From: Gemmatimonadaceae bacterium
GTDB lineage: Bacteria; Gemmatimonadota; Gemmatimonadetes; Gemmatimonadales; Gemmatimonadaceae
DNA length: 64,000 nt
Assembly: GCA_035606695.1 (NCBI GenBank)
Contig: DATNEW010000031.1
Location: 124,001 to 188,000 of the forward strand
Reading direction: 5' to 3'
Both the position numbers and the translations under genes were made by a program. Of the stretch, positions 14,492-19,162 are shown one piece after another (positions within the stretch are counted from its first letter, which is position 1; each line of letters begins with the position of its first letter). The notes beneath the pieces are model-generated. The model made no database searches and was not told where the DNA came from. It worked only from the letters and a program-made list of their open reading frames with translations.

Positions 14492-15433
14492 TTAGAGGTC
14501 CGCCACCACCACCGCGCTATTGCTCATCCCGCGCCGATGCGGACTCGGTTCGCCGCTCACCAATTCATGCAACTCGCGCCGGCGCAGATCGAGATGATAG
14601 TGCGTCCCCACGATGCCGACGCGCAGATGCGACAGCGTGAGCTGGCGCCCCTTCTCGAGATCCCCCGCATTGTCGAAGCGCACGGTATCTCGCCCGTCCA
14701 CGAACGTCACGCCGCCCGCCCCCACGACTTCGCCGACGCCGTCGTGCACGACGAGCGCCGTGTCTTCATCGATGCCGAGTCCAAACAACTGCGTGTTCGA
14801 CGCGACGACGAGAAACAGACGCTGTAGACGGCGTCGTTGCGAGAAGTGCGTGTCGATGATCGCATCGTGGCCGAGCAATCCGAAGCCCGGTCCGATGTAC
14901 TGCTCGACGAGGTTGCCTTCTTCGTCCATCTCGCCGCCGGCCATCGTGAGCTGGCTCAACGCCGCGGCGCCCGCGCTCGTCCCGCAGATCGTGCCGCCGC
15001 GCATGAACAGCTCGCGCATCGCCGCGCACGTCTTCGTTCCGCTCAATGACGTGACCAGCTTCACCTGGTCGCCGCCGCCGAGAAATACGCCTTGCGCCTC
15101 GTCGATCATGCGCGCGATGCGCGCGTCGACGTCTTCACGTGCCTCGAAAATCGGAATGTCCACGTTCCGCACGCCGATGTGATTGAACGCGCCCTTCCAA
15201 TACGCCGCGGCGTCGACCGCTTCGCCGCTCGCCGTCGTCAATCCGACGATGCGCGCCCCATTGGCCGCGCCGGTCGCGTCGATGAAGGATCGCATCGCGT
15301 GGCCGTGCGGTGTCGCGGCGCCGCCGATCAGAATCAGCGTGCCGTCGCTCCCTTGCTCGGATGCGGCCGGAACGTCGACCGGTTCGTCGACGCGGGGAAC
15401 GCCGTTCTCACGTTTCTCATGCCGCTCACGCAC
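14492..15433 (-). CDS. cphB: Cyanophycinase
   Basis: 313 residues, peptidase family S51. The start is a GTG overlapping the upstream stop by 8 bases (GTGCGTGA), so translation is coupled. After a 30-residue polar leader the fold begins at TLILIGGAATPHG. The nucleophile elbow is GTICGTSAGAAAL, and VFLGGGDQVKLV precedes it. A later DTHFSQRRRLQRL helix and LGIDEDTALVV are also typical. The enzyme cuts cyanophycin to beta-Asp-Arg dipeptides. No secretion signal is seen, so it acts on the cell's own reserve. It is the last gene of the synthetase operon, as in other cph loci. Confidence 0.92.
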   Translation of the reverse strand: MRERHEKRENGVPRVDEPVDVPAASEQGSDGTLILIGGAATPHGHAMRSFIDATGAANGARIVGLTTASGEAVDAAAYWKGAFNHIGVRNVDIPIFEAREDVDARIARMIDEAQGVFLGGGDQVKLVTSLSGTKTCAAMRELFMRGGTICGTSAGAAALSQLTMAGGEMDEEGNLVEQYIGPGFGLLGHDAIIDTHFSQRRRLQRLFLVVASNTQLFGLGIDEDTALVVHDGVGEVVGAGGVTFVDGRDTVRFDNAGDLEKGRQLTLSHLRVGIVGTHYHLDLRRRELHELVSGEPSPHRRGMSNSAVVVADL

Positions 15434-16499
15434 AGTCGACTCTCGTTACGTATTCGCCGAGGGCGGCGGCCACCTGCGCTTCGGCGGACACGTCATCGCG
15501 CAGCATTCCCGCGGACACGGGATCACCGCATCGCTCGACCCAGATCTCTCCGTTGCGCACGAGACCGACCGCCGATGCGACGCGCTGATCGCGCCACGTC
15601 ACGTCGTCGTCCACCGCGAAGATCGCCACTCGGCAATCGAGATCGCGCGCGTAATCCTGCAGCTCCCACTCCTTCGCCGGGCAGATGACCGTGCCGTTCC
15701 GCGGCACCGCGTCGGCGACGATGCCCACGAGGCGCCGCGCATTCTCCGGTTCCTGGTAACGCTCGGGCACGGCGTTCCCGGGGCGGGCATCGAGAATGAT
15801 CGCGATCTCGGAGCGCGAGTAGGGGAGTCCGGCTTGCAGCAGGTACGACGGCGCCGCGTCGATGACGAGCGGATCCTGAACACCGCGCGCCTCGAGCAGG
15901 CGCACCAACTCCGCCTGCGTTTCGGCGCGCGGACCGCCGCCAGTGATGCCGCATGTCACCCGCTGCCGCAGCTCCGGTGTGTTCGTGGTGCCGGCGAGTG
16001 ACTCGAGCTCTTCGATGATCGGATGAACTGTCTCCAGCGAACCGGCGAAGGCGCGCTGTACGATGTCGAGCGCGGCAGCGGCAGCGCGCATCCCGACTTG
16101 CTCGTGCCGATGCTCGAAGACGACGGTGTACTCGCCGCGCACGTCGCCGCCGCGCGTGCGGCCGTAGCCAACCTCGTGGCCGACGAGCGCCTGCAACTCC
16201 AGCGCGACGTGCTCGATGATATGCGGCGCATAGGTGCCGCGCTTGAGGCGAATGACGAACCCTCCTCGCGAGCCGATGCTGCAATGATGATCCTGTAAAC
16301 CCGGCAGCGCGGCGAGCAAGCGGTCGGTGAACCCGTCGACGGCCGCGGAATGGATCTCATCGTACGCGCCGACGGCCAGGTCCATGCGAATGACCGGCCG
16401 TTTCGACCAGAAGTTGATGCCGCGCGTCGAGTGCAGCGTCGTGATCTTGATCTCGGCGGTTGGATCCCGAACGGTCTCGGTGACCTCGCCGGACGTCAC
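15426..16499 (-). CDS. Short cyanophycin-synthetase-like paralogue without ATP-grasp or P-loop
   Basis: 357 residues. Residues about 16-165 align well with the N-terminal domain of the neighbouring synthetase (compare HIIEHVALELQALVGHEVGYGR here with HVLEHVSLELQSLAGSDVGFGR there). The whole ATP-grasp domain is absent. Residues about 185-300 resemble the central part of the Mur-ligase domain (SEIAIILDARPGN against CDVGVVLNVSADH), but the GTNGKTTT P-loop is replaced by a Gly-rich ITGGGPRAE. It should not be able to bind or use ATP as the synthetase does. It overlaps the synthetase by 4 bases and cyanophycinase by 8, so it is made with both. A structural or regulatory partner is the best guess. 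Confidence 0.8.
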   Translation of the reverse strand: MTSGEVTETVRDPTAEIKITTLHSTRGINFWSKRPVIRMDLAVGAYDEIHSAAVDGFTDRLLAALPGLQDHHCSIGSRGGFVIRLKRGTYAPHIIEHVALELQALVGHEVGYGRTRGGDVRGEYTVVFEHRHEQVGMRAAAAALDIVQRAFAGSLETVHPIIEELESLAGTTNTPELRQRVTCGITGGGPRAETQAELVRLLEARGVQDPLVIDAAPSYLLQAGLPYSRSEIAIILDARPGNAVPERYQEPENARRLVGIVADAVPRNGTVICPAKEWELQDYARDLDCRVAIFAVDDDVTWRDQRVASAVGLVRNGEIWVERCGDPVSAGMLRDDVSAEAQVAAALGEYVTRVDCA

Positions 16500-19162
16500 G
16501 TGGCGGTCACCGCGTGGGCGCGAATCGCCGCGAGCGTCTGCGGCACTTTCTCGGCGATCACGACCAGCAGATCATCCTCGGTGACTTGCACGATGCCGGC
16601 ATCGATCGCCTCGCGCCCGTTGCGAATGATCTCGATCTCCTCGTGTTCGAGCCCGCCCTTCACCAAACCTTCCTCGAGCAGCTCGGCGATCTCGCCGGGA
16701 ACGCGGCCGCGCAGATCTTCGTCTTCCTTGATGATGACGTGATCGAAGCTCGCGACGAGCTCGCCGGCGCGGATGATGTCTTCGTTGCGGCGGTCGCCCG
16801 GTACGGTGACGATACCAATCCGCCGCCGCGCCGGCAGCCGATGCACGAAGTCCATGAGTCCCTCGAGCGCGGCGGCATTGTGCGCGTAGTCCACCATTGC
16901 GCGGGCGCCGCCGTGGAGGCGAATGAGATTCAACCGCCCGGGCGTGAGCGACGCCGACGGGAAGAAGGACAGAAGGCCGGCGCGAATGTCATCGTAGCGC
17001 ATACCCTGCACGTAGGCGCTGCCGATCGCGGCGAGAATGTTCTGCCGCTGGAATCGCGCCGCGCCGCCAAGCATGAGCGGCACTTCGCGCTCGCTCGCGA
17101 TCGGAATGCGCAGCCGCCCCCGGCGAATGATGAACTGACCGTCCTCGATGTTCGCGGCGATGCCGTTCCGCGCGATATGGTCCTCGACCAGCTGGTTCTC
17201 GCCCGGCGCCGTAGTGCTGAACAGGACGATGTCGGCGCCCGTCTTGTCGCGCATGGCGAAGACCAGCGGGTCGTCGGCGTTGAGCACCGCGTGACCCTCG
17301 CGTTTTACTACCGCTGGTATTACAGATTTCACATCGGCCAACTGCTCGATCGTGTTGATGCCGCGCAGGCCGAGATGATCGGCGCTGACGTTGAGCACGA
17401 CGCCGACGTCGCATTCCTCGAACCCGAGTCCCGAGCGCAGAATGCCTCCGCGCGCGGTCTCCAGCACCGCGACGTCGATCGTCGGGTTCGAGAGGATGAT
17501 GTTCGCGGCGAACGGGCCCGTCATGTCGCCTTCCATCACCAGGCGATTCTGAATGTAGACCCCGTCCGTCGTCGTGAACCCAACGCGATGTCCGGTGTTG
17601 CGGAACAGATGCGCGAGCAACCGCACCGTCGTCGTCTTTCCGTTCGTGCCCGTGACCGCGAGAATCGGAATCGTGGCGTCCGAGCCCGGCGGGTACAGCA
17701 TGTCGAGAATGGGCGTGCCGACGTTGCGCGCCGTGCCCTCGGTCGGATGCGTGTGCATCCGAATGCCGGGCGCCGCATTGACCTCGAGAATCACCGCGTC
17801 GTTCTCGCGGAACGGCACGCCGATGTCTCTCGTCAGCACATCGATGCCGGCGATGTCGAGACCGACGATGCCCGCCGCCATCTCGCACGCGGTGACGTTG
17901 TCGGGATGCATCTCCTCCGTGCGATCGATCGACGTCCCGCCCGTCGAGAGATTCGCCGTCCCGCGCAGAAAAACTCTCTCGTCTTTCGGCGGGACGGTGT
18001 CGAGCGTCAGCCCTCGTTTCGCGAGATACGCCACCGTGCGATCGTCGCTCGGCAGCCGGGTGAGAATTTTTCGATGGCCGACGCCGCGGCGCGGATCGCG
18101 ATTCGCGATCTCGATCAACTCGATGATCGTGTGCACGCCATCGCCGACCACGTGCGCCGGCACCCGCTCCGCGCAGGCGACCACTTTGCCGTTCACCACC
18201 AGCACGCGGTGATCGTTCCCTTCGTGATAGTGCTCGACCAGCACGCGCCGCGACACGGAGCGCGCCATCTCCCACGCTTCGCCGATGGAATCCGGCGAGT
18301 CGAGCTTGCCCGAGATGCCGCGGCCGTGGCTCGCATCGATCGGTTTGAGGATCACCGGATAGCCGATGTCTTCGGCCAGCTCGATCGCGCCATCGAGCGT
18401 TCTCACCGTGCCGCCGCGCGGTACCGGCAAACCGATGTTGCTCAAGACGCGCTTCGTGTCTTCCTTGTCCTGCGCGATCTCGACGGCAATCGAGCTCGTG
18501 AACTCGGTTACCGTCGCCTGAATGCGCCGCAGATTCTTGCCGAGCCCGAGCTGAATCAGCGAGCGGGAGTTGAGGCGGCGCACCGGGATGTTGCGGCGTC
18601 GTGCTTCTTCGACCACCGCCGCCGTCGACGGACCGAGCTGGACGGTTTCGTAGAGATCCTGCAAGTCGTCGATCAAATCATCCATGCCGACCTGCGCGCC
18701 ATCGATGCACGCGCGAATCAATCGGACGGCTTGGTGCATCGCCTCGAGCCCGACCTCCTCTTCCTCGTACTCGACGATCACCCACCATACGCCGGCGTCG
18801 CCGGACTGAACGACGCGGCCGAAGCCGACGTCACTGCCCGCGAGCGACTGCAACTCGAGCGAAACATGCTCGAGCACGTGCGGCAAATGCGTGCCTTCAT
18901 TGAGCCGCTCGGCGAAGCCTCCGCTATCACCGCGCGAGCACGGATGCTCACGCAGTGATGGAAGATTCGCGAGCAGTCGCTCGCAGAAGCCTGGGATCTC
19001 ATTCGATGCGACGTCCTCGAGCTTGCCGAGTCGGACGTCGCAGGCGATGACCGGCGCCAGGCGCCAATAGTTCGGGCCGCGCAACGCGCGGATGCGGGTG
19101 ACGCGGAATTCGTATGAGTCGAGTGCGTCGGGCTCGGCGACCGTGGTATCGACGGTGGTCAT
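16496..19162 (-). CDS. cphA: Cyanophycin synthetase
   Basis: 888 residues, the usual length. Domains: N-terminal CphA domain (1-165), ATP-grasp (about 220-480, with TVTEFTSSIAVEIAQDKEDTKRVL, YPVILKPIDASHGRGI and ILEVNAAPGIRMHTHPTEG), then Mur-ligase-type domain (from 495) with P-loop TGTNGKTTT at 504-512, LETARGGILRSGLGF and MVDYAHNAAALEGLM. It joins Asp and Arg into the polymer cyanophycin, a nitrogen store, using ATP at both active sites. All key motifs are intact. It starts 42 bases after the giant-permease gene on the same strand and overlaps its short paralogue by ATGA. Confidence 0.95.
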   Translation of the reverse strand: MTTVDTTVAEPDALDSYEFRVTRIRALRGPNYWRLAPVIACDVRLGKLEDVASNEIPGFCERLLANLPSLREHPCSRGDSGGFAERLNEGTHLPHVLEHVSLELQSLAGSDVGFGRVVQSGDAGVWWVIVEYEEEEVGLEAMHQAVRLIRACIDGAQVGMDDLIDDLQDLYETVQLGPSTAAVVEEARRRNIPVRRLNSRSLIQLGLGKNLRRIQATVTEFTSSIAVEIAQDKEDTKRVLSNIGLPVPRGGTVRTLDGAIELAEDIGYPVILKPIDASHGRGISGKLDSPDSIGEAWEMARSVSRRVLVEHYHEGNDHRVLVVNGKVVACAERVPAHVVGDGVHTIIELIEIANRDPRRGVGHRKILTRLPSDDRTVAYLAKRGLTLDTVPPKDERVFLRGTANLSTGGTSIDRTEEMHPDNVTACEMAAGIVGLDIAGIDVLTRDIGVPFRENDAVILEVNAAPGIRMHTHPTEGTARNVGTPILDMLYPPGSDATIPILAVTGTNGKTTTVRLLAHLFRNTGHRVGFTTTDGVYIQNRLVMEGDMTGPFAANIILSNPTIDVAVLETARGGILRSGLGFEECDVGVVLNVSADHLGLRGINTIEQLADVKSVIPAVVKREGHAVLNADDPLVFAMRDKTGADIVLFSTTAPGENQLVEDHIARNGIAANIEDGQFIIRRGRLRIPIASEREVPLMLGGAARFQRQNILAAIGSAYVQGMRYDDIRAGLLSFFPSASLTPGRLNLIRLHGGARAMVDYAHNAAALEGLMDFVHRLPARRRIGIVTVPGDRRNEDIIRAGELVASFDHVIIKEDEDLRGRVPGEIAELLEEGLVKGGLEHEEIEIIRNGREAIDAGIVQVTEDDLLVVIAEKVPQTLAAIRAHAVTAT

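Follow-up and report, generated by a model that had tools for sequence, protein, structure and literature searches.

What is the role of a gene that resembles a broken cyanophycin synthetase and lies between the genes of the synthetase itself and of a cyanophycin-degrading enzyme? The question is raised by a genomic locus of a Gemmatimonadaceae bacterium (GenBank assembly GCA_035606695.1), contained in a window of 64,000 nucleotides (contig DATNEW010000031.1, positions 124,001 to 188,000), where cphA, a middle gene that we refer to as MID, and cphB follow each other on the minus strand as one operon (Table 1). The literature that we found treats CphA1, CphA2 and the clustering of cph genes. 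A stand-alone protein made of the N domain of CphA, with or without the Mur core (Mcore), was not described in the open-access literature, which leaves most subscription papers outside and is weak evidence of absence, and a 2023 survey of cph clusters has no match for “Gemmatimonad”, “truncat” or “N domain”.

Table 1. Genes of the cyanophycin operon and parts of their products, in window positions
Feature	Position	Strand	Description
cphA	16496..19162	-	888 aa, CphA1-type synthetase: N + ATP-grasp + Mur ligase
CphA Cx19HxxEH zinc site	18866..18940	-	C75 to H99, intact
Middle gene (MID)	15426..16499	-	357 aa, CphA N domain + degenerate Mur core, GTG start
MID N domain	16005..16451	-	residues 17-165, PF18921
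MID Cx19HxxEH zinc site	16209..16283	-	C73, H93, E96, H97, equal to SuCphA1 C59, H79, E82, H83
MID degenerate Mur-ligase core	15432..15971	-	residues 177-356, without Mlid lobe
Lost P-loop position in MID	15921..15941	-	GGGPRAE, residues 187-193
cphB	14492..15433	-	exo-cyanophycinase, peptidase S51, GTSAGA nucleophile motif

The start of MID overlaps the end of cphA by 4 bp (GTGA) and its own end overlaps cphB by 8 bp, in agreement with the coordinates, the frame and the overlaps of a few bases with both real enzymes proposed in a previous sequence-only reading of this DNA, and these overlaps suggest a coupled expression of MID with its neighbours. Both flanking products score above the curated cut-offs of their families (CphA, 1129.5 bits against TIGR02068; CphB, 163.4 bits against TIGR02069), and MID and CphA are the only two PF18921 proteins in the whole genome. 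Further Peptidase_S51 genes and a gene of the IaaA-type isoaspartyl peptidase family occur elsewhere in the genome, which makes a full route of cyanophycin synthesis and degradation plausible. Antisense to cphA, there is also an open frame of 814 aa (window 16514-18958, plus strand) with no sign of being a real gene, likely a mirror frame of GC-rich DNA.

Domain composition and predicted fold of MID

The N-terminal part of MID is readily recognized. The CphA domain that the sequence-only reading had placed there is found by Pfam (PF18921, E=4e-38, residues 39-149) and by an NCBIfam alignment to TIGR02068 spanning residues 17-169, it shows 46% identity to the neighbouring CphA over 113 residues (BLASTP), and it is present in 30/30 MID homologues scanned. 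The score of MID against TIGR02068, 170.8 bits, stays far below the curated whole-length cut-off of 850 bits. The C-terminal half is more elusive: neither a Mur nor an ATP-grasp Pfam family was matched in any of 30 homologues, and phmmer recovers a second stretch collinear with CphA1 residues 551-665, too weak when taken alone. Profile comparison relates this half to the M domain of the neighbouring CphA (probability 74.6%, E 2.6e-5), but hardly to its G domain (only 3.9%). Two losses that had been read from the letters are therefore borne out, the first being the ATP-grasp domain, which has no Pfam match in MID, the low G-domain probability just mentioned and no counterpart in the structural alignment. 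The second is the Mur P-loop GTNGKT, which reads GGGPRAE in MID, and neither this P-loop nor the catalytic Asp-His is found in any of the 33 homologues.

An AlphaFold2 model of MID, computed from an alignment of 30 rows, is confident and compact (pLDDT 94.9, pTM 0.89). Its top structural match is 7TXV, the E82Q mutant of SuCphA1 with cyanophycin (Z 33.0, 2.5 A, 332 residues), tied with TeCphA1 (7WAE, Z 32.7), and the alignment covers the CphA1 chain from residue 1 to about 711, leaving out the ATP-grasp region. After the CphA1 structures come the Mur ligases, which match MID residues 177-356 with Z of about 14-17 (MurD 3LK7, Z 16.7 over 161 residues; MurF, MurC and MurE are comparable), so that the part after residue 165 retains the Mur core fold and not an unrelated one. 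TeCphA1 has been divided into the modules N (1-161), G (162-487), Mcore (488-723) and Mlid (724-876) (PMC9427784), and by these limits the modelled MID is N plus Mcore, with G excised and Mlid absent. The packing of N against Mcore seen in CphA1 is predicted to be kept, while MID has no counterpart of the large Gcore dimer interface of CphA.

Zinc site, polymer contacts and evolution

In the sequence-only reading the N domain appeared as a polymer binder, but its function in CphA1 goes beyond binding, since it is a zinc metallopeptidase-like endo-cyanophycinase with a Cx19HxxEH site, whose action on cyanophycin yields primers about four dipeptides long (PMC9262961). When supplied in trans, the isolated N domain of SuCphA1 converts a primer-dependent CphA1 into a primer-independent one, and primer-independent activity is lowered or lost in the SuCphA1 mutants H57A, C59A, R70A, H79A and E82Q (PMC9262961). 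The polymer bound at the N-site of SuCphA1 also contacts the Mcore residues S603 and E607 (PMC9262961). The active-site residues of the N domain are complete in MID. In SuCphA1 numbers, H57, C59, S60, F67, R70, H79, E82 and H83 are invariant in 33/33 homologues, where one row scored as Cx20 carries two adjacent cysteines and fits Cx19 as well; Y110 and either Arg or Lys at position 100 are also found in 33/33, and E87 in 30/33. E90, another polymer contact of SuCphA1, occurs in 1/33 and is likewise not conserved in the other Gemmatimonadota CphAs examined. The description of MID as catalytically dead is thus right for both synthetase sites and not supported for the zinc site: judged by its residues, MID is dead as a synthetase and intact as an endo-cyanophycinase.

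The polymer contacts differ between MID and its partner. By an ungapped phmmer alignment, over a stretch that is weak alone, SuCphA1 E607 corresponds to MID D263, an Asp in 29/30 homologues and a Glu in the remaining one. The partner synthetases, which we call CphA_I, mostly have Ala at this position, otherwise Ser, Gln or Arg, and never an acidic residue where it is readable; at the position of Tyr110 they have Trp in 33/35 cases. The other type of CphA in this phylum (type II) keeps Glu607 in 30/32 and Tyr110 in 54/62. The contact losses in CphA_I fit a shift of the cutting activity to MID, a link that stays suggestive because two genomes with CphA_I but without MID (G330 and G341) have the same substitutions. 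Although they have lost these contacts, the partner CphAs keep an intact Cx19HxxEH site and should be able, by motif, to make their own primers. This led us to reject a division of labour in which the zinc site would be missing from the partner. The idea that type II CphAs lack the N-site was rejected too, as 59/62 contain Cx21HxxEH.

The search for homologues and their gene context that the sequence-only reading had suggested yielded 33 homologues, mostly beside cphA and cphB: MID is present in 32 of 395 Gemmatimonadota genomes and in one further record. Identities are 56-66% over about 340 residues in most genomes and 43-47% in three deeper ones, and the frame is full-length in nearly all of the genomes carrying it. 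The gene order is close to constant, with CphA_I directly before MID in 29/32 testable loci and cphB directly after it in 28/30, so that the proposal of a CphA paralogue with a fixed place among the cph genes extends well beyond one genome. Together with the Mur core fold of the model, this is the opposite of what would have refuted the sequence-only reading, an unrelated fold after residue 165 and no link to cph genes elsewhere. The exceptions are two genomes with a MID-cphB pair located away from cphA (G379 and G311), one with about 3.1 kb between cphA and MID-cphB (G285), and two with MID still next to cphA and no cphB after it (G158 and G356). CphA_I occurs in every MID genome whose contigs allowed a check, and no case of MID accompanied by type II CphA alone was seen. 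No MID was found on plasmids by tblastn against PLSDB, whose matches were CphA and N+M proteins only, nor outside Gemmatimonadota in one single-sequence scan of genome contigs.

In a tree of N domains, MID forms a single clade (100/97) that spans two families of the class Gemmatimonadetes and is sister to CphA_I (99/92). Both clades have long stems, a kind of join about which the program warns, which leaves their sister relation on less firm ground than the unity of either one. Such a tree is what one old duplication in the lineage of the partner CphA would produce. Pairwise dN/dS ratios well below 1 (0.02-0.20 in the N domain, 0.08-0.41 in the Mur core) indicate that MID is under purifying selection. 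The constraint on the Mur core is weaker but real, with conserved positions of its own, which may reflect an additional role of MID. The notion that the N domain is more conserved in MID than in CphA was discarded, since it holds for dN in close pairs only, and over 465 pairs the two are equal (0.703 in MID and 0.698 in CphA_I).

Known and newly noticed relatives

MID is neither a CphA1, three of whose defining features it lacks, nor a CphA2. With CphA1 (SuCphA1, 7TXV; PMC9262961) it has in common the N domain, the Cx19HxxEH site, the shell residues and, in the model, the Mcore packing; it differs as a separate gene product without ATP-grasp, P-loop, Asp-His and Mlid, and so without polymerization. 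CphA2 is a reduced relative of CphA1 that lacks the M-domain P-loop and the Mlid module (PMC9427784), as MID does too, but CphA2 keeps the G domain and has no N-site motif, whereas MID shows the reverse, with no G domain and HxxEH in 33/33 homologues; the separation from CphA2 made in the sequence-only reading was correct. CphB also cuts cyanophycin, as predicted for MID, with the unrelated fold of a serine exopeptidase, and the Peptidase_S51 domain present in the downstream cphB has no Pfam match in MID. From the Mur ligase family MID has the core fold without the ATP-binding P-loop GTNGKT. The HxxEH motif is also common to the M16 inverzincins, whose third ligand is a downstream acidic residue or His, in contrast to the upstream Cys73 of MID, equivalent to that of CphA1 (PMC9262961).

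Other CphA-like proteins were noticed along the way. A second Gemmatimonadota operon has the layout cphB, cphA type II (Cx21HxxEH) and a G-less paralogue of about 575 aa (most of L084-L143, for example L088:2077-7619), a layout that also occurs on a plasmid of Ruegeria sp. THAF33 (L083). These paralogues, named “Mur ligase family protein”, resemble MID in having an N-like domain plus a Mur part, with ATP-grasp excised, and in lying beside cphA, but their Mur ligase is complete and their degenerate N domain has lost the zinc site, the mirror image of MID; the model of one of them matches 7WAE with Z 37.2 over 551 residues, corresponding to CphA1 N and M with G removed. A plasmid of Legionella adelaidensis (L075:6001-7869) encodes a protein of 622 residues with an intact N-site, a full Mur ligase and no ATP-grasp, annotated as a Mur ligase family protein and adjoining genes for a cyanophycinase and an isoaspartyl peptidase. 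Several genomes have, close to the operon, another CphB-like S51 gene of divergent sequence (31-36% identity; L035:1544-2389, L036:5731-6789, L037:129-2078, L047:8380-9453).

Stand-alone CphA-like N domains were also found in phages (IMG/VR L149:7049-7942, L150:1478-2215, L151:8010-9824 and L152:8001-8918; BFVD A0A6J5PU94), in proteins of 245 to more than 600 aa that have a complete Cx19HxxEH but neither a G nor an M domain. Of the four that are distinct, three have a motif of the IRRILREE type after the N domain, at about residue 160, and the same type of motif occurs near the N-terminus of many neighbouring phage ORFs. It may resemble a capsid-targeting sequence that is cleaved at an (L/I)xE site, and a new use of this peptidase, in the maturation of virions or in an attack on a host polymer, is possible; a PHROGs search gave no match. 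The phage N domains fall together with the N+M protein of Legionella and apart from MID, which makes it probable that stand-alone N domains have more than one origin.

A candidate endo-cyanophycinase acting in trans

We propose, with a probability of about 0.65, that MID descends from CphA and is an endo-cyanophycinase in its own right, which would act in trans to provide primers or fresh chain ends. In the cphA lineage that occurs in the class Gemmatimonadetes, one copy from an old duplication would have lost ATP-grasp in full, together with the Mur P-loop, the catalytic Asp-His and the Mlid lobe. It would have retained the zinc metallopeptidase N domain and the Mur core packed against it, a unit whose retention is probably explained by the polymer groove of the N-site, which appears to lie against Mcore. 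MID would then cut cyanophycin chains internally, and since CphA adds to the C-terminus of chains and CphB attacks them from their ends, each cut would yield both a primer for the former and a fresh end for the latter. With a gene of its own for the cutting enzyme, the ratio of cutting to polymerizing could be set by expression, which is impossible with CphA1 alone. As for its main role, the demonstrated effect of the isolated N domain favours, by analogy, the supply of primers to CphA, a choice that we hold tentatively. Help in the mobilization of cyanophycin comes next as a rather doubtful candidate, kept in play by the position of MID beside cphB, where it is retained when cphA has moved. 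A fuller scenario, in which MID is a naturally split-off primer-making enzyme whose partner kept the zinc ligands and changed its polymer contacts, with cutting and polymerizing balanced by expression, is conceivable at somewhat less than even odds.

The main competitor of this proposal is a protein with no enzymatic activity, a subunit or regulator that would attach to CphA, to CphB or to the granule and control chain length or activity, either by docking its Mur core at the contact sites between Mcore and Gcore of CphA or by holding chains with its N domain. Such a protein could explain why both synthetase sites are lost in all homologues and why the Mur core is retained with conserved positions of its own; in the TeCphA1 tetramer, moreover, Mcore contacts three Gcore modules (PMC9427784), and the overlaps within the operon suggest coupled expression. 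The chief argument against it is that binding alone leaves the retention of the zinc site in 33/33 homologues unexplained, to which can be added the absence of the large Gcore dimer interface of CphA and the three genomes where MID lies beside cphB though cphA has moved or is separated. We consider it unlikely, and with all the zinc-site residues intact, the binding, chain-length or regulatory role of the sequence-only reading keeps some weight but is no longer the simplest one.

Much less probable is an endo-enzyme recruited from the CphA N domain towards another substrate, be it a different isopeptide or a protein. The phage stand-alone N domains, which have an intact site and adjoin proteins with a capsid-targeting-like motif, indicate that the fold can exist outside cyanophycin metabolism, but MID was found solely with CphA_I, nearly always beside cphA or cphB, and most of its polymer-contact residues are kept. 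The loss of the synthetase motifs, together with a Pfam coverage of just half of the protein, could point to a pseudogene in decay or to an open frame that arose by chance, readings that are nevertheless hardly credible for one clade kept across two families, with dN/dS of 0.02-0.41, frames full-length in nearly all genomes and a confident compact fold.

When the N-site of CphA1 was discovered in 2022, the authors pointed out that one and the same polypeptide carries out synthesis and hydrolysis, so that expression cannot set the balance between the two (PMC9262961). The MID operon, which is conserved in a soil phylum of which few members are cultured, seems to be a naturally occurring exception to this constraint, and it makes the control of cyanophycin yield and chain length through primers testable by adding, removing or mutating one small protein. 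The yield of cyanophycin in heterologous hosts is limited by the supply of primers (PMC9262961), so a natural stand-alone endo-cyanophycinase would be a practical part. The locus also carries a warning, in that the sequence of an apparently degenerate synthetase may be that of a working hydrolase.
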